Assembly (NCBI RefSeq): GCF_040218225.1
Contig: NZ_JAVJQO010000009.1
Location: forward strand, 1-44,275
Length of the DNA stretch: 44,275 nt
Source of the DNA: Gracilimonas sp.
GTDB lineage: Bacteria > Bacteroidota > Rhodothermia > Balneolales > Balneolaceae
Direction: 5' to 3'
Shown here: in pieces, positions 11,630-21,613 of the stretch
Layout: every line of letters starts with the position of its first letter
Position numbering within the stretch: position 1 is the first letter of the stretch
Program-made: the position numbers and the translations under genes
The notes under the pieces: generated by a model
The model's database searches: none
The model's input: only the letters and a program-made list of their open reading frames with translations
What the model was told of the DNA's origin: nothing

Positions 11630-11655
11630 GTTTTATCTAATCAACGTATATCGTT

Positions 11656-11681
11656 GTCATGCTGAATTTAGTTCAGTATCA
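11656..11681 (+). repeat. Solitary half-unit of the GTCA-hairpin repeat family
   Basis: GTCA is followed by a 7-bp hairpin, TGCTGAA-N5-TTCAGTA, the same layout as the left end of the 108-bp repeats at 13277 and 13753. One G-C pair is replaced by a G/T wobble and the loop differs. No right end is visible, so this is a remnant or a single unit. The rest of the 287-base gap before the next gene shows nothing I recognise. Confidence 0.7.
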
Positions 11682-13276: not shown

Positions 13277-13384
13277 GTCATGCTGAACTTGATTCAGCAT
13301 CTGAAGAAGGCGAAACTTTAGCGAAGGAGCGTGTCAAAAACAGGCAATCACTCCCTTCAGACCCTGAATCAAGTTCAGGGTGAC
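13277..13384 (+). repeat. 108-bp REPIN-like repeat, copy R1
   Basis: The unit begins with GTCA and ends with TGAC. The left end has a hairpin TGCTGAA-N5-TTCAGCA. The right end, read on the other strand, has GTCA followed by CCCTGAA-N5-TTCAGGG. The two ends are thus inverted copies whose stems differ by paired, compensating changes, enclosing about 50 bases that include CTTTAGCGAAGGAGC. Copy R2 at 13753 has the same length and orientation and differs at only 5 positions. The GIY-YIG gene lies between R1 and R2. Confidence 0.9.
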
Positions 13385-13409
13385 AACCTATTTTAACATA
13401 CTTAAATGA

Positions 13410-13700
13410 TTAACCTCTCAATGTAGGATAAAGATCCGCCAAATCAGGGTTCAGTGTTTTAATCAATTCCCATTTCCAAGCTCTTTTCCAGTTCTTTAGT
13501 TGCTTTTCTCTTTCTATAGCATCAGAAATGGTACCGTGTTCTTCTGCATACAACAGAATTATACATTTGTATTTTGCAGTAAACTCCGAGCCTTCGCCTT
13601 GTTTATGCTCCCAGATTCTACGGTTTAAGTTATTGGTTACTCCAATGTATAAAGTAGTCCGGGCTATGTTGGATAGTATGTAGACATAGGCCTTGGTCAT
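13410..13700 (-). CDS. GIY-YIG endonuclease-like protein (UPF0213/COG2827 type), copy 1
   Basis: The 96-residue product is a single GIY-YIG domain. It has YVYIL at 5-9 (the GIY strand), LYIGVT at 17-22 (the YIG strand), R27/R28, EH at 31-32 and the AIEREKQLKNW helix at 61-71 carrying the conserved Glu (E63 or E65), then LIKTLNPDL. Family members are predicted Mg-dependent nucleases; the cellular role of this subfamily is not established. I chose the ATG at 13700 because the copy at 21169-21459 starts at the same point and shares the bases before it. An ATG at 13757 would extend it into repeat R2. The gene sits 25 bases from R1 and 52 bases from R2. Confidence 0.88.
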   Translation of the reverse strand: MTKAYVYILSNIARTTLYIGVTNNLNRRIWEHKQGEGSEFTAKYKCIILLYAEEHGTISDAIEREKQLKNWKRAWKWELIKTLNPDLADLYPTLRG

Positions 13701-13752
13701 ATAAGTATGAGCGTTTTGAGAGGTATTCCTTACAAAACCTTTTTTAGATGTC

Positions 13753-13860
13753 GTCATGCTGAACTTGATTCAGCATTTGAATAAGGCGAAACTTTAGCGA
13801 AGGAGCATGTCAAAAACAGGCAATCACTCCTTTCAGACCCTGAATCAAGTTCAGGGTAAC
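13753..13860 (+). repeat. 108-bp REPIN-like repeat, copy R2
   Basis: It is a direct repeat of R1 (103 of 108 positions identical by eye) with the same GTCA-hairpin ends and internal spacer. Similarity continues a few bases to the right of both copies (AACCT). It covers the 5' side of the minus-strand GIY-YIG gene. R1-gene-R2 therefore forms a cassette spanning 584 bases. Confidence 0.9.
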
Positions 13861-13952
13861 AACCTTTTTTGCAGTCGCTTTGCAATTTGGAACTCTCCGT
13901 AATTTTCATTTTAAGTTTATGCTAATAAATTTTTCAAAAATCGGAGGTACTT

Positions 13953-14645
13953 GTGTCTATTCTAGAGAGAACATGTAATCTATCAATATATTTATGCGTG
14001 GCTGTAGCTGCTTTATTAGCTTTCACTACAGCATGCAGCGATAATTCAACCGGAAGTAACGGATCGTCAAATAATCCGCAGTCATTTTCAGTAAAAGGAG
14101 AGCTGTCCGGCTATGATCATGGCGAACAAGAGCTGTATCAAGCCGAAGACTTTGTAGATTTGATTGACGGAACTATTAATGCAGATGGTACATTTACTGT
14201 TGAATTTTTAGGTGAGGAAGCAGTTCAGGAAGCGTTAAAACCACTAAGTGATGATAGCGAAGGGTTTGTATCGATGTACTGCCGGAATGCAGTCCGGGAA
14301 AATCTTGACGATGGTCACCAGTTTGTTGGACTGAGTGTATTCAATTTTACCTACGGTGAAGAAACCAATGTAGGTGGGATAGGACTTAGCAGTGGCGCTC
14401 CAAATAGAAATGTTTATCCACCAAGTAGTGATTTTAGAGGAGAATACCAGGTTCGCTGGATATATTCCACACACGAAGCCACGATATCTGAAGAATGTGA
14501 TTCAGGCAGCGGTGGAACTGAGGAAGTTGAAATCGAATTAATGGAAGGCTGGAATGAGGTTATTTTTAATGTAAGTGATGGCGAACGTTTAAGAATGTAT
14601 ACTGGCGAACGCCCTTCGGAAGTTGGCTGGACATTGGAAACATAA
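13953..14645 (+). CDS. Putative lipoprotein of unknown function
   Basis: The 230-residue product has a signal sequence with hydrophobic core (about 9-24) and a lipobox-like FTTAC with C28, followed by a Ser/Asn/Gly-rich linker, typical of Bacteroidota outer-membrane lipoproteins. The rest is acidic and beta-rich, without a domain I recognise. It contains two further cysteines in a region (MYCRNAV and EECDSG) that might form a disulfide. The start is GTG at 13953, 5 bases after GGAGG (13943-13947). It lies alone between repeat R2 and the DoxX gene on the other strand. Confidence 0.72.
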   Translation: MSILERTCNLSIYLCVAVAALLAFTTACSDNSTGSNGSSNNPQSFSVKGELSGYDHGEQELYQAEDFVDLIDGTINADGTFTVEFLGEEAVQEALKPLSDDSEGFVSMYCRNAVRENLDDGHQFVGLSVFNFTYGEETNVGGIGLSSGAPNRNVYPPSSDFRGEYQVRWIYSTHEATISEECDSGSGGTEEVEIELMEGWNEVIFNVSDGERLRMYTGERPSEVGWTLET

Positions 14646-14667
14646 TGGAATGTCGTTCCCTTTTTGG

Positions 14668-14694
14668 CCATGCTGAAATTTAATTCAGTATTTG
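14668..14694 (+). repeat. Solitary half-unit of the GTCA-hairpin repeat family
   Basis: GCCA replaces GTCA and is followed by TGCTGAA, a 6-base loop and TTCAGTA, matching the left-end hairpin of R1/R2 with one wobble pair. No second end follows. It lies between the stop of the lipoprotein gene and the terminator of doxX. Confidence 0.6.
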
Positions 14695-14711
14695 GAATGA
14701 TGAACCTTATC

Positions 14712-14747
14712 AAAAAAAACCCGCAAGGCTCTGAAGTCTTGCGGGTT
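14712..14747 (-). terminator. Rho-independent terminator of the DoxX gene
   Basis: AACCCGCAAG (14718-14727) pairs with CTTGCGGGTT (14738-14747), a perfect 10-bp stem. On the minus strand the stem is followed by eight T residues (A run 14712-14719), so it ends the transcript of the DoxX gene that stops at 14777. Confidence 0.9.
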
Positions 14748-14776
14748 ATCTAAAGGCTAAATTAATCAGGATTACT

Positions 14777-15196
14777 TTACAGAGGCGTTGCTTCAGAGCT
14801 TCCGGTATCTGAAGGTTTTCCCAACATATCATCGAGTGAATAGCTTCCGGTTCCCATTATAGATAAAGCTAAGCTGGTGAGTAGCAACATAATCTCAAGT
14901 CGCATGCCGCTGAAGCCTCCATCCCCACCCATCTTTACCGTAAAAATGGCTACCAGCATAGTAAATGCCAGAAGTATTCCCGGAATTTCAACTTTGTATC
15001 CAACCAACATCATAATCCCGCCTACAAATTCAACCAAGGCAACTACCCAGGCCATTACTCCAGCCATAGGAATACCGATATTACCGAAAAATCCCTGAAC
15101 ACCTTCAATTCCGGTTAGTTTGCCCCATCCTGCAATGATAAAAATAACACCAACACCTATTCGTAGCAGTAGAATTGCTAAGTTTTTATTTTTCAT
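14777..15196 (-). CDS. DoxX family membrane protein
   Basis: This 139-residue protein has about four transmembrane helices (roughly 6-25, 44-66, 71-89, 97-115) and the family-typical start ILLLRIGVGVIFIIAGWGKL with the conserved GWGKL motif. It also has FVGGIMMLVG in the second helix. DoxX proteins are inner-membrane proteins of uncertain function, some linked to quinone or thiosulfate metabolism or to redox stress. No partner subunit is nearby, so a thiosulfate:quinone role is not supported. It is a single-gene unit with its own terminator. Confidence 0.88.
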   Translation of the reverse strand: MKNKNLAILLLRIGVGVIFIIAGWGKLTGIEGVQGFFGNIGIPMAGVMAWVVALVEFVGGIMMLVGYKVEIPGILLAFTMLVAIFTVKMGGDGGFSGMRLEIMLLLTSLALSIMGTGSYSLDDMLGKPSDTGSSEATPL

Positions 15197-15281
15197 AAAA
15201 TCTCCAATTTGGGTTTAAGGGTATAACCAATCTATTTTAAATGGACTAAACTTCAAAAGAAAAAGTTTAATGTCTAACTAA

Positions 15282-15800
15282 ATGACTCAATCCGAAGCGA
15301 TAAGACTTATCGAAGAAGCAGGTTTTAAAGGTAATCAGGCAGAGAAATGGGTAGATCTGGGTTGTGGGAGCGGCTTGTTTAGCTATGCACTGGCTCAGAT
15401 ATTATCAAAAGATAGTCATATTCTGATGGTGGATAAGGTCAATCAGGCTCCGATAAAGTCATCGGTTCATGGTATTCATTTAGAGTTCTTGCAGATGGAT
15501 TTCAGTAAACAACAACTTCCGAAAGATGAATATGATGGTATTTTGATGGCTAACTCTCTTCATTATGTGAAAAACAAAAAGACATTCATTCAAAAGTTAA
15601 CACATCATCTCTCAGAAAATGGAAGACTGGTTATTGTCGAGTATGGCACAAATAATGCAAATCCCTGGATTCCATACCCGATCACATTAAGGCAGCTGGA
15701 AGAATTATTTAAGGAGGAAGGATTTAAATCAGTAAGAAAAATCGGTGAACGCCCATCCAGATACGGACATAAGAATATGTATGCAGCGGAAGTAAGATAG
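15282..15800 (+). CDS. Class I SAM-dependent methyltransferase
   Basis: The 172-residue product has the Rossmann-fold SAM signature VDLGCGSGL at 24-32 (motif I), MVDKV around 49-53 with the acidic ribose-binding residue D51, LQMDF at 70-74 and the motif IV-like NSLHYVK at 91-97. It resembles small methyltransferases of the Methyltransf_11/25 type; the substrate cannot be read from sequence. It is transcribed divergently from DoxX with an 85-base gap and converges on the M28 peptidase. Confidence 0.85.
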   Translation: MTQSEAIRLIEEAGFKGNQAEKWVDLGCGSGLFSYALAQILSKDSHILMVDKVNQAPIKSSVHGIHLEFLQMDFSKQQLPKDEYDGILMANSLHYVKNKKTFIQKLTHHLSENGRLVIVEYGTNNANPWIPYPITLRQLEELFKEEGFKSVRKIGERPSRYGHKNMYAAEVR

Positions 15801-15832
15801 ACCAGTGACCAAATTAAGATTCAGTCACTGGT
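15801..15832. terminator. Hairpin between convergent genes (probable bidirectional terminator)
   Basis: ACCAGTGAC (15801-15809) pairs perfectly with GTCACTGGT (15824-15832) across a 14-base loop. It begins one base after the methyltransferase stop and lies 19 bases from the stop of the convergent peptidase gene. There is no T tract, so its strength is uncertain. Confidence 0.55.
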
Positions 15833-15851
15833 TGGCAGGTCAATTCAATAT

Positions 15852-17402
15852 TTAGTTGCCACCATCACGGTTAGCGGTACGGGGACTAGGCCATTCCATT
15901 TGTTCGCCTGTCCACCGGCTAACGGGAAGAACCGCTTTATCACGAGGGAAAGTTTCGGGATCTTCGCTGGCCATATAGGTTAAAATCGCAGTTAAGATGG
16001 CATTACTTCGAACATCATCGAAAACGATTTTATCATAGGTATCACGATTAGTGTGCCAGGTATAATTCCAGTAACTCCAGCTTAATGAACTCAGAGAAAA
16101 CCCGGGAGCTCCGGCTGATACAAAGGATGCATAATCGGAGCCACCACCACCAGGGGTTCCCGGAAAGGTAGTTTCAATATGCTGGGTAATATCACGCGGT
16201 ACGGCTTCCAGCCACCTTCCCAAAAACTCGTAAGCATGAAGAAATCCCTGTCCTGAGATCCGAACTACACGTCCGGTCCCATTATCCTGATTAAATAATG
16301 CCTGCATGTTGTCAACGATTTCAGGATTATCTTCCACAAAAGCTGCTGATCCGTTCAGTCCCTGTTCTTCGCTCCCCCAAAGTCCCACAATAATGGTTCT
16401 TTTTGGGTTTGGATACACTTCTTTCAGGATTCGTGCGGCTTCCATCATGGTAATTGAACCTGTGGCATTGTCAGTGGCTCCGGTTCCGCCATCCCAGGAG
16501 TCGTAATGAGCAGAAAGGATGATATATTCATCGGCTTTTTCTGAACCGGGAATCGTAGCAATGGTATTGAAAGTCGGAACTTTCCCCAATTTCTTGGATT
16601 GTGCATTAACTTTGATTTTGGGTTCATCGCCATATTCAACCATGCGATACAGCATACCATAATCTTCAAGAGCAAGGTCTATAACGGGTACTTTTTTGGT
16701 TCCTGCACTAAAGATTTTGTTTACGCCAAACCCACTTGACCAGCGTGACTGAATGATTCCAGCAGCTCCGGCTTCTTCCAGAACCGGCAGTATTTCACGT
16801 GAGTTGTAGCCAATTTTATCGAATCGGGCTCGCCAGGCATCTTCCATAGCATCGCGCCCCTCTTTCATTTTTTCAAAAGATTCTTCGGTAGCGAATTCTT
16901 CCCAGTTATAATCAGGTCGTCCAGTGGGTTGCATCATTGAGACAAGGATGAATTTTCCTTTGATGGTTTTCAGCCATTCTTCAAAAGCCGCTTTATTTTC
17001 TACGTCGGGGATAATATCCAAACCTCCTTCTACGCCACCTTTTTTAGTAGCAGGACTCCAGGCAAGCTGCATCCCTTCCAGTGATACTACACGCGGTGAA
17101 ATCAAGTCAATATGGGTGATGCCACGTTCCCACCCCTGCCATTGGCCAAACTGCTGATTCTCTGCTGAGATACCCCATTCTTCAAACTGTTCCACCGCCC
17201 ATTCATGAGCATGTTGCATCTGTGGTGTACCCACAAGCCGTGGTCCGATTACATCGGTAAGCTGATGTGCCAGATATTCCAGCTGCGAATTTTCAGTCGC
17301 TTCTTGTACGATAGCATCCACCATTTCGTCGGTTGTCTGAGCATTGACCAGGCCGAATGGCAGCAACATCGAAATGCATAGTAATAATGTGATTCTTTTC
17401 AT
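15852..17402 (-). CDS. Secreted M28 family metallopeptidase
   Basis: The 516-residue protein starts with a Sec signal peptide (MKRITLLLCISMLLPFGLVN then AQ). A PA-like insert region spans about 125-275, and the zinc peptidase domain follows. Metal ligands can be followed: H299 in SAHYDSWDGG, D311 in ATDNATG, E345/E346 in WGSEEQG, D373 in NQDNGTG and H450 in WHTNRDT. M28 enzymes of this layout are di-zinc aminopeptidases or carboxypeptidases that trim peptides outside the cytoplasm. All catalytic residues are present. The gene is preceded by a terminator, so it has its own promoter. Confidence 0.92.
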   Translation of the reverse strand: MKRITLLLCISMLLPFGLVNAQTTDEMVDAIVQEATENSQLEYLAHQLTDVIGPRLVGTPQMQHAHEWAVEQFEEWGISAENQQFGQWQGWERGITHIDLISPRVVSLEGMQLAWSPATKKGGVEGGLDIIPDVENKAAFEEWLKTIKGKFILVSMMQPTGRPDYNWEEFATEESFEKMKEGRDAMEDAWRARFDKIGYNSREILPVLEEAGAAGIIQSRWSSGFGVNKIFSAGTKKVPVIDLALEDYGMLYRMVEYGDEPKIKVNAQSKKLGKVPTFNTIATIPGSEKADEYIILSAHYDSWDGGTGATDNATGSITMMEAARILKEVYPNPKRTIIVGLWGSEEQGLNGSAAFVEDNPEIVDNMQALFNQDNGTGRVVRISGQGFLHAYEFLGRWLEAVPRDITQHIETTFPGTPGGGGSDYASFVSAGAPGFSLSSLSWSYWNYTWHTNRDTYDKIVFDDVRSNAILTAILTYMASEDPETFPRDKAVLPVSRWTGEQMEWPSPRTANRDGGN

Positions 17403-17493
17403 GAATCCGATCTCCGATTCTGTCAGTTAAGATTAACCGGAGAATATATTCTATTAATCTATAAAAGGGGGAGACTGAAATTTCTTTTTACGA

Positions 17494-17523
17494 ATAAAAA
17501 AACCGCCTCAAAAGAGACGGTTT
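17494..17523 (-). terminator. Rho-independent terminator of the rhodanese gene
   Basis: A 10-bp stem (17500-17509 with 17514-17523, one mismatch-free G/T pair) with a TTTT loop on the minus strand is followed by a T-rich run there (A run 17496-17502). It separates the rhodanese gene from the downstream M28 peptidase. Confidence 0.88.
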
Positions 17524-17550
17524 CCTGCGCTATCATGTGGATGTTAAATT

Positions 17551-17898
17551 TTACACGTCAGTTCCGGCTAATTCATAGCCAGCTTGTCTCCAGCCAGCAA
17601 GGCCTTCTTCAAAATCACTGACGTTGGTATAACCCATTTCTTCCAGCTTCTGTGCAAGATTAGGAGACGCATCACAATCGGAATTTGCGCAGTAAACAAT
17701 AATTTCGGCATCCATAAACGGAATAACCTCTTTAGCCACTTCGGCGTTTTCCGTTGGTATATTTAGGGAACCCGGAATATGCTTAGCCAGATAGGCATCA
17801 CGTGATAGTGCATTTATAATTATTGGCGAATGTTCGCCTGTCATTTTTCGATGTAAAGTTTCTACGTCTGTTCGTTGAAGTGTTGCTGTGGCAGTCAT
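17551..17898 (-). CDS. Rhodanese-like domain protein
   Basis: The 115-residue single-domain protein has the N-terminal CH2A-like HIPGSLNIP (40-48) and the active-site loop starting at C70 in VYCANSDCD, the cysteine that carries a persulfide in rhodaneses. The C-terminal end has the typical FEEGLAGWRQAGYEL. It has no signal peptide, so it is cytoplasmic. Rhodaneses transfer sulfane sulfur to acceptors such as thiols or carrier proteins. The sulfur operon at 32444-34583 is the nearest possible functional partner, but it is 14 kb away. Confidence 0.9.
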   Translation of the reverse strand: MTATATLQRTDVETLHRKMTGEHSPIIINALSRDAYLAKHIPGSLNIPTENAEVAKEVIPFMDAEIIVYCANSDCDASPNLAQKLEEMGYTNVSDFEEGLAGWRQAGYELAGTDV

Positions 17899-17961
17899 AA
17901 TCTTTGAGTTTAGATTCGACTTTTTACTTCACTTTCATAACAAATCATAGCCTGTTCACAT

Positions 17962-19098
17962 TCAGAGATGCTTCTCTTTATAAATGGAAAAGAATGTATG
18001 GGCAGAGGGTTCTATGATCTCATCCGGAAAATCATAGGCAGGATTATGCAGTGGGGGCAGGCTTTCTCCGGCTCCAAAACCAAATTGGGCACCTTTATTT
18101 GTTGCGGTGAAGTAGGCGAAATCTTCAGACCAATTGTTGGGATGTTTCATTTGCTGAACCGTTAGTTTATTGGACTCGGCAGACTTAGTAATCATGTCCA
18201 CACAATCAGGGTCATTGAGAGTAGCAGGATAGATTTCTGAATAACTCCAGTCATAATCCAGCCCATTTTCCTGTGCCAGTTCTCCAACAATGGCTTCTGA
18301 TTTATTGCAAAGCAGATCAAGGTCATCGTTTTCATAGGCCCTTAATGTGATGCCCATTTCCAAGCTTCCAGGAGAAACCCCGAAAGCAATCTCACCCAAC
18401 CGGATATATATCAGCGTGGCTATGGTGTGGTCTTTAAAAGAAGATTGATCATTGTTAGCGAGATTCAGAATTTGATCCGTAATTTTGGTAGCTGTTTCGT
18501 AGGGGTTCAATCCGTTTTGAGGTTCTGCCGCATGGGATGTCCGCCCCTCAAGTTTTATGGTGAAGCCACAGGAAGCAGCAGAAAAACTTCCTTTTTTCAG
18601 TAATATAGTATTCTTTTCGACGCCGGGAATATTATGAAGGGCAAAGATATAATCCGGGGAAAGGGCATGGAATTCTTTGGATTCCACAACATCTTTAGCA
18701 CCAAGGTAGGTTTCTTCCGCTGGCTGAAAGAGTAAAACAGCTTTTCCTTTCTTTGGGCGGTTCTGGGAAATAAGCTGACCTAATCGAGCTATGATAGCCA
18801 TGTGCCCATCATGCCCACATAAATGGGCAACTCCTTTAATAGATGACCGATAAGCCCGGTTCGGTTTTTCCTGAATAGGAAGTGCATCCAGTTCACACCG
18901 AAAAATCAGGGTTTCCCCGGCTTCTTCCCCCTCAAATACGAATGCCTTCCCCGTTTTTGAAATGGATATTTCTTTATCCGGATTTAATGGTTCGAAAAAA
19001 GATGAAATGCGTTTTGAAGTTTCAAACTCCAGGTTTGATAATTCAGGGTAACGGTGAAGGGTACGTCTCAGGTTGATGACATCTTGTAAATCGGACAT
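17962..19098 (-). CDS. M20 family amidohydrolase (N-acyl amino acid deacylase-like)
   Basis: The 378-residue enzyme belongs to the M20D amidohydrolase group that removes acyl or amide groups from amino acid conjugates. It shows RCELDALPI (67-75), CGHDGHM (94-100, metal ligands C94 and H96), QPAEE (125-129, with the general base E128 and ligand E129) and ALHNIPG, followed by a dimerisation domain with SHAAEPQNGLNPYE. No signal peptide is visible, so it acts in the cytoplasm. Its start is 3 bases from the stop of the RidA gene upstream on the same strand, which points to one operon with RidA and the aminotransferase. Confidence 0.9.
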   Translation of the reverse strand: MSDLQDVINLRRTLHRYPELSNLEFETSKRISSFFEPLNPDKEISISKTGKAFVFEGEEAGETLIFRCELDALPIQEKPNRAYRSSIKGVAHLCGHDGHMAIIARLGQLISQNRPKKGKAVLLFQPAEETYLGAKDVVESKEFHALSPDYIFALHNIPGVEKNTILLKKGSFSAASCGFTIKLEGRTSHAAEPQNGLNPYETATKITDQILNLANNDQSSFKDHTIATLIYIRLGEIAFGVSPGSLEMGITLRAYENDDLDLLCNKSEAIVGELAQENGLDYDWSYSEIYPATLNDPDCVDMITKSAESNKLTVQQMKHPNNWSEDFAYFTATNKGAQFGFGAGESLPPLHNPAYDFPDEIIEPSAHTFFSIYKEKHL

Positions 19099-19101
19099 AA
19101 A

Positions 19102-19587
19102 CTAATTTTTAACAGCTGTAACCATGATTTCTACTTTCGCATCCAGCGGAATACGGCTGACCTCAACAACCGCTCGTGCAGGTGGGTTTTCAGGAAAATA
19201 CTGAATATAAATATCATTGAACGAACCATAGTCATCCATATCATCCAAAAAAACCTGTGCTTTCACAACATCTGACATTGCAAAACCAGCCTCTTCTAAG
19301 ACTGCTTTAATATTATTCAGGGTTTGATGGGTTTGTGAATTAAGGTCATCACCAGCCAGTTCCCGGCTTTCCGGAATCAGGCCAATTTGCCCGGAAAGAT
19401 AGAGTGTGTTACCAACCTGAATGGCCTGGGAGTATACTCCAACTGATGCGGGTGCTTTATCAGTATTAATGACTTTCTTTTGCTGTTCTGTACTTGTCTC
19501 AGTTTCAACCTCAATGCAGGATGAAAATACTCCTATAATTATCAGGCTGACAAGAGGTAGTTTAAAAGTGAAATTTTCTATCTTCAT
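19102..19587 (-). CDS. RidA/YjgF family lipoprotein
   Basis: This is a RidA domain (about residues 38-160) behind a lipoprotein signal: lipobox GVFSSC with C24 as the lipid site. RidA hydrolyses reactive enamine/imine intermediates released by PLP enzymes. The catalytic Arg is present as R138 in PPARAVVEV, and SGQIGL and the terminal EIMVTAV also match. Most RidA proteins are cytosolic, so an exported, membrane-anchored version is unusual. It lies between the M20 enzyme (3-base gap) and a signal-bearing PLP aminotransferase, suggesting it cleans up that enzyme's products in the envelope. Confidence 0.9.
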   Translation of the reverse strand: MKIENFTFKLPLVSLIIIGVFSSCIEVETETSTEQQKKVINTDKAPASVGVYSQAIQVGNTLYLSGQIGLIPESRELAGDDLNSQTHQTLNNIKAVLEEAGFAMSDVVKAQVFLDDMDDYGSFNDIYIQYFPENPPARAVVEVSRIPLDAKVEIMVTAVKN

Positions 19588-19609
19588 AAGTTCGAATATT
19601 TAGGTAGTT

Positions 19610-19626
19610 GTCACACTGAATTTGAT
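19610..19626 (+). repeat. Fragment of the GTCA-hairpin repeat in an operon gap
   Basis: GTCA-CACTGAATTTGAT matches the first 17 bases of the repeat family with two differences, after which similarity stops. It sits in the 62-base gap between the aminotransferase and RidA genes. It is short enough that chance cannot be ruled out. Confidence 0.35.
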
Positions 19627-19649
19627 GGGGCTCTGCATAAACGCCTTTA

Positions 19650-20939
19650 CTAAACTTTTTTAATCTGATCTTTCATAGCGCTGATAAACCGGTCAATTTC
19701 TTCCAGGGTAGTGTAAACATTTGGAGTGACACGAATACCCCGAAACTGATCGCGATTAATGGGAGTGGTAATAATACGATAATCACGCCAAAGAGCACTA
19801 TTCAGATCATTGGGTTCCATCCCCTTGATTTCGACCGTGGCAATTCCGCAGGCATATGTTGGGTTTCGGCTGGTATGAAGAACTACTTTGTCTCCATCCA
19901 CAAGCTCGTCAATCCAAAGATCATTAAGGTGTTTAAGCCGGGCTTCCTTGCGGGCTGAGCCGATACCTTCATGGAAAGTTAAGGCCTCACCAATAGCCAG
20001 GAAATTAGCAGCCGGGTGAGTGCCGATTTCCTCAAACTTACGGATGTCTTCGTCCTGTGATTCTTCTGCTGCCATCAAAGGCCAGAGGTCTTTAATCTTG
20101 TTTTTACGGACGTAAAGCATACCCGTTCCATGAGGTGCAAATAGCCATTTATGAAGGCTGGATGTATAATAATCACAATCCAGATCCGAATGATTAAATG
20201 TAAAATGAGCGAAAGCGTGGGCGCCATCTACAATAACCGGTATTCCTTTTTTACGAGCCATCTGCACCACTTTTTTTACAGGGAGAATCTGCCCTGTAAG
20301 GTTGATGATATGGCACATCAAAATCAGCTTGGTATTTGGAGTGATAGCCTCTTCGAATCGGCGAACAATCTCGGCATCATCTTCTGCCGGCACCGGGATA
20401 CTTATTTGGTTAAGTTTGATGCCTTCACGTCTTTCCCGCTGTTTAAAGGTATTGATCATCCGGGGGTAATCCTGGTCGGTTGTCAATACTTCATCACCTG
20501 CTTTCAAATCGAAACCAAACTGGCAAATTTGCAAGCTTTCAGAAGCATTTCTGGTGATGGCGATTTCTTCAGTATCTACCCCAAAGTTACGAGCCAGCCG
20601 TTGTCTTACGCCTTCTCTTCGGGGTTCTAAAATCCTCCACATATTATATACCGGTGCCTGATTGGAGAAGTCCAGATGCTTTTTCATGGCTTCCTGCACA
20701 AATGCCGGGGAAGGGCTAACGCCTCCATTATTCAGGTTGATGAGGCTTCTATCTACGGTGAAGGCTTGCTGTACATGAGCCCAGAAATCTTCATTTCGGG
20801 CAATTTCTTTAGCGGTACCCGAATAGTTTCCAAGGTCTTCTTTAAGGCTGTGATACTTTAGCGGATTAAAAAAAGTTGAGGCTGTTAATGCCGCTGCCCC
20901 GCCACTGATTTTTTTTAAGAACTGTTTCCGTGTTTCCAT
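19650..20939 (-). CDS. Exported class V aminotransferase (PLP)
   Basis: The 429-residue protein has a fold-type I PLP domain of the class V group, close to isopenicillin N epimerase-like and cysteine desulfurase-like enzymes. The cofactor residues are D238 in VIVDGAHA, H241, and Lys K264 in SSLHKW. The N-terminus (TRKQFLKKISGGAAALTAST) looks like a Tat signal with RK in place of RR; Tat export would fit a cofactor inserted in the cytoplasm. It is first in a probable operon with the RidA lipoprotein and the M20 enzyme. The substrate cannot be told from sequence. Confidence 0.87.
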   Translation of the reverse strand: METRKQFLKKISGGAAALTASTFFNPLKYHSLKEDLGNYSGTAKEIARNEDFWAHVQQAFTVDRSLINLNNGGVSPSPAFVQEAMKKHLDFSNQAPVYNMWRILEPRREGVRQRLARNFGVDTEEIAITRNASESLQICQFGFDLKAGDEVLTTDQDYPRMINTFKQRERREGIKLNQISIPVPAEDDAEIVRRFEEAITPNTKLILMCHIINLTGQILPVKKVVQMARKKGIPVIVDGAHAFAHFTFNHSDLDCDYYTSSLHKWLFAPHGTGMLYVRKNKIKDLWPLMAAEESQDEDIRKFEEIGTHPAANFLAIGEALTFHEGIGSARKEARLKHLNDLWIDELVDGDKVVLHTSRNPTYACGIATVEIKGMEPNDLNSALWRDYRIITTPINRDQFRGIRVTPNVYTTLEEIDRFISAMKDQIKKV

Positions 20940-21049
20940 TGCAATTCCCCTTTTATGCTGATTGGGAATTAGCCATAGAAAAGCAAAAAAGCAAGCCGGA
21001 TTATAGGTAGTATGGCGTTATTATGAACCAACAGGCCGGCAGATACAGG

Positions 21050-21145
21050 TTGATTCAGCATTAGTAGAGGTCGAGGTAGCAGCCAATAGATTAGGAAGAT
21101 TCAAGCAATCAATCCTTTCAGACCCTGAATCAAGTTCAGGGTGAC
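21050..21145 (+). repeat. Degraded REPIN-like repeat, copy R3
   Basis: The right end is well kept: CCCTGAA-N5-TTCAGGG hairpin plus GTGAC, with the CAATCAATCCTTTCAGA stretch before it as in R2. The left end survives only as TTGATTCAGCAT and the middle has diverged. It lies 23 bases from the stop of GIY-YIG copy 2, matching the R1 position for copy 1. Confidence 0.8.
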
Positions 21146-21168
21146 TACATGTTAAATAAAACATGCAA

Positions 21169-21459
21169 TTAGCCCCTTAGTATTGGATAAAGGTCAACTA
21201 AATCAGGATTGAGGGTTTTAATTAAATCCCACTTCCAGGCTTTTCTCCAGTTCTTTAGCTGTTTTTCTCTTTCTATTGCATCAGATATAGTACCGTGTTC
21301 TTCGGTATAAAGTAGAATCGTACACTTGTATTTTGCGGTAAATGTAGAACCTTTCCCCTGCTTGTGTTCCCAAACTCTGCGGCTAATATCCTTAGTCACC
21401 CCAATGTATAAAGTAGTTCGGCCAATATTTGACAGTATGTATACATAAGCACCTCTCAT
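21169..21459 (-). CDS. GIY-YIG endonuclease-like protein (UPF0213/COG2827 type), copy 2
   Basis: The 96-residue protein is the same length as copy 1 at 13410-13700 and identical at 79 of 96 positions. All motif residues are kept: YVYIL, LYIGVT, RR, WEHKQG and AIEREKQLKNW. Differences are mostly conservative, which suggests selection on the protein. The bases before the ATG also match copy 1 (GCTC, T/A, TACTTA). It again lies on the minus strand between two members of the GTCA-hairpin repeat, R3 and R4. It is a predicted nuclease with unknown biological role. Confidence 0.88.
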   Translation of the reverse strand: MRGAYVYILSNIGRTTLYIGVTKDISRRVWEHKQGKGSTFTAKYKCTILLYTEEHGTISDAIEREKQLKNWRKAWKWDLIKTLNPDLVDLYPILRG

Positions 21460-21539
21460 GTAAGTAAGAGCAATTTAAAAGCAATTACTTACACTCTTCT
21501 CCGATGTTTCTAAGAACCCACCAATTATGCCTCCGGGTC

Positions 21540-21613
21540 GTCATGCTGAATTTAATTCAGCATCTGAGGAGGAAGGTGATGTAGAGAAGGAGTTTGTCAT
21601 GTTCAGGGTTGAT
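21540..21613 (+). repeat. Shortened REPIN-like repeat, copy R4
   Basis: The left end is intact: GTCA followed by TGCTGAA-N5-TTCAGCA with a changed loop. The middle keeps GAAGGAG. The right end is reduced to GTTCAGGGTTGAT, so about 34 bases including half of the right hairpin are missing. It flanks the 5' side of GIY-YIG copy 2, as R2 does for copy 1. Confidence 0.8.

Follow-up and report, generated by a model that had tools for sequence, protein, structure and literature searches.

A contig of 44,275 nucleotides from Gracilimonas sp. (Balneolaceae; RefSeq assembly GCF_040218225.1, NZ_JAVJQO010000009.1; below the window, one contig of a 3.54 Mb genome) carries two short genes for GIY-YIG proteins, each located between copies of a hairpin repeat. 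Genes of this kind were accompanied by tagged hairpins in the source genome, in the family and across phyla, and the sequence of the repeat followed the protein clade. Each GIY-YIG gene and the surrounding repeats would constitute a cognate pair, in which a small nuclease recognizes specific hairpins as its sites. The repeats are dimers of repetitive extragenic palindromes (REP) of the CGTC type. We consider it probable that such nuclease-hairpin pairs exist and that the nucleases, similar to Ssn of Neisseria and expressed in competence, nick hairpins in transforming single-stranded DNA (ssDNA). Loci are designated by L-numbers and genomes by G-numbers.

Tagged hairpins beside GIY-YIG genes

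GIY-YIG gene 1 (96 amino acids; minus strand, 13410-13700) lies between two complete 108-bp units of the same orientation (plus strand), at 13277-13384 on its stop side and at 13753-13860 on its start side. Sequence comparison showed 93% identity of the two over a 123-nt register. Unit 13277-13384 consists of two inverted GTC-tagged hairpins around a spacer; the stems are ATGCTGAA/TTCAGCAT and ACCCTGAA/TTCAGGGT, the loops have 5 nt. Folding as ssDNA yielded z -7.4 compared to shuffled sequences (0/200 shuffles as good) for the first unit, z -3.4 and -3.6 for its two hairpins taken singly (1/200 and 2/200) and z -4.7 for the second unit. The list of open reading frames (ORFs) puts the start of gene 1 at 13757, inside the second unit; the ATG at 13700 is the better start. 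GIY-YIG gene 2 (96 amino acids; minus strand, 21169-21459) is bordered on its stop side by a right half unit (plus strand, 21102-21145; a hairpin with the GTC tag on the minus strand) and on its start side by a degenerate unit (plus strand, 21540-21613), of which the left hairpin at 21540-21564 is intact and the right half decayed, as judged by sequence comparison. Another degenerate half unit of this family may be present at 11654-11680 (plus strand; weak match, E 0.1). The initial annotation had described two minus-strand GIY-YIG genes between members of one repeat family, stop-side gaps of 25 and 23 bp and a REPIN-like layout. The sequence agreed with all three, the two inverted REPs forming a head-head dimer. 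The near-equal spacing was not general; on the stop side the median distance to the nearest tagged hairpin was 42 bp (own genome), 33 bp (family) and 16.5 bp (named set, see below). The 'GTCA plus hairpin' ends of the initial annotation are an inverted hairpin pair as claimed, but the tag is better given as GTC (mostly CGTC or TGTC), and the stem follows directly, usually starting with AT.

Genes 1 and 2 matched Pfam GIY-YIG with E = 3e-16 and 1.4e-17, and their products are 82% identical. Residues of the active-site type do not vary in 35 diverse members, the invariant set including Y7, Y18, G20, R28, H32, E65 and N84; the gene 2 protein carries Y7, Y18, R28, H32, E65 and N84. Its AlphaFold2 (AF2) model had a pLDDT of 94. 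With this model Foldseek returned UPF0213, Slx1 and the N-terminal domain of UvrC, none at E<=0.001 (best 1.7e-3), and UPF0213 was also the best match in a PDB sequence search. UPF0213 (YhbQ-like), Slx1 and the UvrC domain share the GIY-YIG fold and are nearest by fold, UPF0213 also by sequence; none of them is known to accompany repeats. A group I intron or homing GIY-YIG endonuclease was rejected: the protein is a single domain of 96 amino acids, TIGR01453 scored 18-21 bits compared to a cut-off of 56, and an Rfam scan of the window contained no intron match, the sole match being a tRNA.

According to Pfam the genome has 11 GIY-YIG places, nine of them short genes. By reading, GTC-bounded repeats were present on both sides of all nine. 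A fixed rule (GTC, a stem of 5 bp or more that begins with AT, a loop of 3-60, then C, within 350 bp) identified a tagged hairpin on at least one side in 9/9 and on both sides in 7/9. After the rule had been widened to GTCA[TC], no tagged hairpin was found in 3.2 kb at the Cho-like gene (L010), and uvrC (L009) had one, 1.1 kb upstream of the GIY domain, in a stretch without the downstream end of uvrC. Direct unit copies on two sides (score of at least 40) were found for eight of the nine own genes compared to 1/322 control pairs. The sole exception was window gene 2 with its degenerate units.

The association extended far beyond this genome. The family sample comprised 92 genomes, searched with a profile built from the nine own proteins at a cut-off of E<=1e-6. 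Matches were obtained in 67/92 genomes, the number of copies ranging from 0 to 13 over the 92, and 80 family loci were hand-picked from the listed places, same-genus first and then down the list. A second sample, the named set, took the 80 best-matching relatives out of at least 583 in species-representative genomes; by record title it covers Bacteroidota, several classes of Proteobacteria, Elusimicrobia, Patescibacteria, Chloroflexi, Nitrospinae, Leptospiraceae, Firmicutes and others. Altogether 173 genes were taken in; the duplicate loci L042 and L064 and genes with a flank <200 nt were left out before counting. A tagged hairpin within 350 bp was present in 71/80 family genes (55 on both sides) and 64/74 named genes (43 on both sides), compared to 22/473 and 27/396 (5-7%) control segments lying 700 bp or more from the genes and to 7/800 and 10/740 flanks resampled by a first-order Markov model. 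Direct copies on two sides (score of at least 40) flanked 41/80 family genes and 18/77 named genes (control 3/274). At a score of at least 25, 32/77 named genes had direct and 40/77 inverted copies (controls 7/274 and 3/274). Four loci (L202, L056, L069, L062) contained two GIY-YIG matches. Several GIY-YIG places were matched through a stop codon (G040:C1:439537, G039:C1:152384, G010:C9:9314 and others); some members look decayed, although a number of these stops may simply mark the natural end of the gene.

The repeats resemble the CGTC REP superfamily, characterized by an unpaired CGTC (or TGTC, CCTC) tag at one end, a stem of 8 (up to 9) bp beginning with AT, a loop of 5 (or 4) and a short tail, mostly CCA; these REPs mostly form head-head dimers, often heterodimers, and were described without a dedicated transposase and without mention of GIY-YIG (Di Nocera et al., 2013; PMC3733652). 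The window hairpin, with a stem of 8, a loop of 5 and the GTC tag, corresponds to this description, and the window unit and the L007 unit are head-head dimers. Different from the published REPs, a GIY-YIG gene is consistently located beside the present repeats, and CT-tails are commoner than CCA: the tagged hairpins ended in CTC (148), CTT (85), CCA (84), CTG (55) and CTA (52), under a rule which itself demands an AT/AC stem start and a final C. The base preceding GTC was T in 186, C in 166, G in 50 and A in 46 cases. Some clades have long imperfect hairpin arms, and one window arm starts with AC. Among the results listed by literature searches in a library with few subscription journals, no paper joined CGTC REPs with GIY-YIG, which is no evidence that none is in print.

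REPINs and their RAYTs are similar in that an inverted pair of tagged hairpins is dispersed and one gene family has its own repeats. Yet here the enzyme is GIY-YIG and not an HUH tyrosine transposase, the tag is GTC and not GTAG, and the gene is often located between direct copies; the three RAYT-type genes examined carry no tagged hairpin in their flanks. Membership in the REPIN-RAYT group was rejected. Ssn nucleases of Neisseria, reportedly site-specific for single strands and paired with NTS repeats (Chenal, Veyrier and colleagues, Nat Commun 2025), are said to modulate transformation. As reported, they share with the present proteins the small stand-alone GIY-YIG domain, the many dispersed cognate repeats (dRS3/CGTC-1 type) and a link to natural transformation. 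Here, in contrast, one genome has nine paralogues and at least six different repeats, the genes are mostly between direct units, lone units occur at sites that carry the gene in relatives, and a competence-type promoter is shared. The present genes show two features expected of the Ssn family, a stand-alone GIY-YIG domain with intact active-site-type residues and a cognate repeat which lies close by and recurs at dispersed places of the genome. They likely belong to this family or to a very close one, and the statement of the initial annotation that this subfamily has no settled role is, in view of Ssn, probably outdated.

Repeat sequence and protein clade

Within the one genome, window genes 1 and 2 share a repeat, L005 and L011 share another and L006 and L008 a third; L003, L004 and L007 each have their own. 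The nine paralogues are thus associated with at least six different repeats. Protein identity was then compared to repeat similarity for 81 Balneolaceae genes in 30 genomes. The cross-genome correlation was r 0.545. When repeats were shuffled within each genome the mean r was 0.139 (sd 0.044), and 0/500 shuffles reached the observed value. Same-genome pairs shared a repeat (similarity of at least 0.8) in 3% of 65 cases at 35-45% protein identity, in half of 10 at 65-80% and in 8/8 at 80% or above. The named set gave r 0.364 (n = 72), with 0/1000 permutations as high. Of all the evidence, this covariation argues most strongly for reading of the repeat by the protein. Because the repeat sequence follows the protein clade and not the genome, each nuclease very probably recognizes its own repeat. 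One clade has repeats of the GTCATTCCCGCGAAGGCGGG type, which in Neisseria corresponds to dRS3. When columns of the protein alignment were compared to positions in the repeat stem, mutual information singled out residues 70-72 (also 45, 67 and 48) of the window protein, a measure which ignores kinship and is a lead only; residues 70-72 form the loop between two helices following E65 in the AF2 model.

Copy numbers pointed in the same direction. The repeat GTCATYGCGAGGAG was found in 22/92 genomes (a control pattern had 1 match over all). Its cognate protein (E<=1e-40) was present in eight; the repeat occurred in 8/8 of these vs 14/84 without cognate (p 3e-6), at five or more copies in 6/8 vs 5/84 and at ten or more in 4/8 vs 4/84. 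GTCATCCTGAACTTGTTTCAGGATC (up to 1 mismatch) was found in 35/92 genomes, with at least five copies in 12/13 with cognate vs 11/79 without (p 4e-8). Both p values overstate the evidence, given the kinship among the genomes and the choice of cut-offs after the matches had been viewed. The initial annotation had proposed that the GIY-YIG protein recognizes or spreads the repeats. Association, covariation and co-occurrence argue for recognition; spreading is unproven.

Gene absence, lone units and relocation

For relocation, 90 pairs of same-clade genes from the genus were compared, with identities of 60% or above and with paralogues from a single genome admitted. No same-side flanking context was shared in 71/90 (2 of these share opposite sides); 14 had one side in common and 5 had both. 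Relatives are nevertheless largely collinear with the window over 40 kb. The gene 2 interval, 747 bp in the own genome, measures 284, 135, 469, 170, 169, 124 and 127 bp in G023, G024, G027, G021, G028, G026 and G029, and in none of these seven did it contain a GIY-YIG motif or a tagged hairpin; that of G027 contains other repeats. Another palindrome family (TAGCTCCGTCCTTCAGG...CGGAGCTA), presumably IS200-like, occupies intervals where the own genome has GIY-YIG genes; it was seen in G023 and G027, in the regions that align with the window (L284-L289). The ORF at 13953-14645, beside locus 1, was present in the own genome only when ten genomes of the genus were searched (1/10).

At the L007 site of the own genome, ~1840 bp are taken up by two units, the gene and four further units. 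The site is ~124 bp long in G023 and G027, without a unit, and in G024, where only the left flank is in common, it contains one lone unit and no gene. Elsewhere in G023, which lacks the cognate gene, five gene-less L007-type units are arranged in tandem with a period of ~183 bp (G023:C2:672357-673239). At the L003 site three units, the gene and two units in the own genome correspond to a half-unit remnant of that type in G023 and G027; farther on two imperfect hairpins of another type are located. At one site G023 retains the right end of a unit which is complete in G027. This is apparently a deletion between CAAGT microhomologies and, consequently, a loss and not an empty site. The comparison of orthologous loci for empty sites, proposed with the initial annotation, thus confirmed absence of gene 2 at 7/7 sites, and neither precise insertion junctions nor target duplications were seen at the sites compared. 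Because the genes often sit between direct unit copies, recombination between units may be the process by which gene and units are gained, lost or multiplied and lone units are left behind. This is reminiscent of the solo long terminal repeats (LTRs) of retrotransposons, again with a gene between direct repeats and lone repeats at the sites of relatives. Unlike LTRs, the present system is bacterial, operates without reverse transcription, and its units are hairpin dimers.

A shared promoter and the role of the nucleases

In some Balneolaceae copies the consensus TGTAAGKAAT-N14-TCTNAC is located directly upstream of the start codon. Gene 1 has the promoter-like element TGTAAGGAAT-N14-TCATAC (minus strand, 13705-13734; one mismatch to the consensus) and gene 2 TGTAAGTAAT-N14-TCTTAC (minus strand, 21464-21493; pattern search), each 4 nt ahead of the ATG. 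The core was present within 100 nt of 6/9 own and 19/81 family genes, with 0.66 expected in all. A search of the own genome with the full pattern, spacers of 13-18 being allowed, yielded 23 sites, always with a spacer of 14; the reversed-pattern control yielded 0. Five of the 23 precede GIY-YIG genes by 4-5 nt, so that the mRNA would be leaderless. Other targets are ComEC (4 nt), YifB/ComM, RadC, SSB, RecQ, an Endonuclease_NS protein, the IS200 transposase TnpA (103 nt), RAYT-type genes (L332 and L339 over the family cut-off, L326 below), three 23S IVP four-helix-bundle proteins, a PIN, a TPR and one unassigned protein; RecA and a PAS-domain protein have a site 168 and 183 nt away. In the fetched congener loci the promoter precedes GIY-YIG genes and two integron integrases (L165:872-1825(+) and L175:3080-4039(-); TIGR02249 over cut-off, TGTAAGGAAT promoter), which have a GIY-YIG gene in the same loci. 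The combination of ComEC, YifB/ComM, RadC, SSB and RecA is characteristic of a competence regulon. Because they are found under one promoter, a competence-type regulon is indicated, and we infer that its genes are competence-induced.

Tagged repeats are absent from the three 23S IVP genes under this promoter (L323, L336, L340). The RAYT-type genes (L326, L332, L339) and the IS200 transposase (L327) reside elsewhere in the genome, and no tagged hairpin was found in their flanks. Flank repeat scores were 39 (direct) for L339 and 29 (inverted) for L327 and L332.

How might the nucleases operate? Most likely the protein binds and nicks one hairpin in ssDNA, as reported for Ssn of Neisseria. Several copies appear to be expressed from the competence-type promoter, alongside the genes for the DNA-uptake channel and for recombination, and because of this apparent co-expression the natural substrate is probably transforming ssDNA. 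The nucleases may also help repeat-flanked genes to move.

Several points weigh against cognate pairs acting in competence. A strict hairpin rule (stem 7, loop up to 12) retained just 3/9 own, 36/80 family and 51/74 named genes (controls 0/34, 4/473 and 16/396); many units are evidently imperfect or long-armed. The covariation and Fisher tests ignore phylogeny apart from the within-genome shuffle. Repeat number tracked gene presence strongly over the 92 genomes, but not strictly, and repeats abundant without the gene, which the initial annotation regarded as contrary evidence, were encountered in part: in the absence of a cognate match at E<=1e-25 G023, G026 and G031 have 33, 13 and 14 copies of GTCATYGCGAGGAG, and G067 has 66 copies of GTCATCCTGAACTTGTTTCAGGATC (up to 1 mismatch). 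Most copies lie away from the cognate gene; by hand count 8/27 are near it in G024 and 8/34 in G022. The lone unit at the L007 site belongs to the more distant G024, with one shared flank, while the nearer G023 and G027 are empty, so loss and gain cannot be ordered. Finally, the promoter core accompanies just 25/90 own and family genes and 0/81 named ones, which makes competence control lineage- or copy-specific, and its targets, listed for one genome, were defined by a sequence motif only.

Alternatively, the units are useful to the host, as terminators or modulators of transformation, and the nuclease is kept for control of transformation and is not selfish. A promoter in common with host genes and the reported effect of Ssn-NTS on transformation in Neisseria are in line with this. 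The patchy presence (67/92 family genomes, 0 to 13 copies), the absence at orthologous sites and the several copies matched through a stop codon (in some cases perhaps that of the gene itself) are not, and we regard host utility as possible at best. Somewhat less credible is a nuclease which, like a transposase, actively copies or moves units as proposed for RAYTs and REPINs, gene and units being a mobile element. Dispersed units, tandem arrays, relocation in 71/90 pairs, gene absence at orthologous sites and co-occurrence would all be expected. However, precise junctions or target duplications did not emerge at the sites compared, tandem arrays of unit plus linker and lone units are compatible with ordinary recombination, and repeats persist without the gene. 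GIY-YIG enzymes are nucleases and are not known to join DNA.

The regulon could respond to DNA damage (SOS) instead of competence, because RecA, SSB, RecQ and RadC belong to predicted SOS networks of Bacteroidetes (PMC8565304). This is rather unlikely: ComEC and YifB/ComM are members, and the fixed, -35/-10-like spacing resembles a sigma-factor promoter. LexA control was rejected because the Balneolaeota LexA site, given as TTACACATATTTTWTACATA in PMC7739468, differs from the promoter motif. That genes and repeats merely pile up in tolerant intergenic space or recombination hotspots can practically be dismissed: both are intergenic, and genes for integron integrase or other recombinases are close to some loci, but only 5-7% of the control segments had a hairpin, there was none beside the Cho-like gene or on the upstream side of uvrC, and the repeat sequence pairs clade-specifically with the protein, even within genomes.

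Cognate nuclease-hairpin pairs in competence remain the preferred explanation. As a speculative extension, competence may be the habitat of a guild of hairpin-recognizing ssDNA enzymes, i.e. GIY-YIG proteins with CGTC repeats, RAYTs, IS200 TnpA and, in relatives, integron integrase, under one competence sigma promoter, and GIY-YIG genes between direct units may home into lone units by nicking transforming ssDNA at the hairpins. If true, gene and repeats would have a transposase-free way to spread. The competence link, the several distinct pairs per genome and the behavior of lone units would be new, unless the Ssn paper covers them.

CGTC-type REPs, which in 2013 (PMC3733652) were without a dedicated enzyme, are now tied to one enzyme family across phyla. 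Clade-by-clade matching offers many natural nuclease-target pairs, several per genome. A competence-type promoter is proposed in Balneolota, and because it ties the nucleases, RAYT-type genes and the IS200 transposase to DNA uptake, their role in transformation is directly testable.

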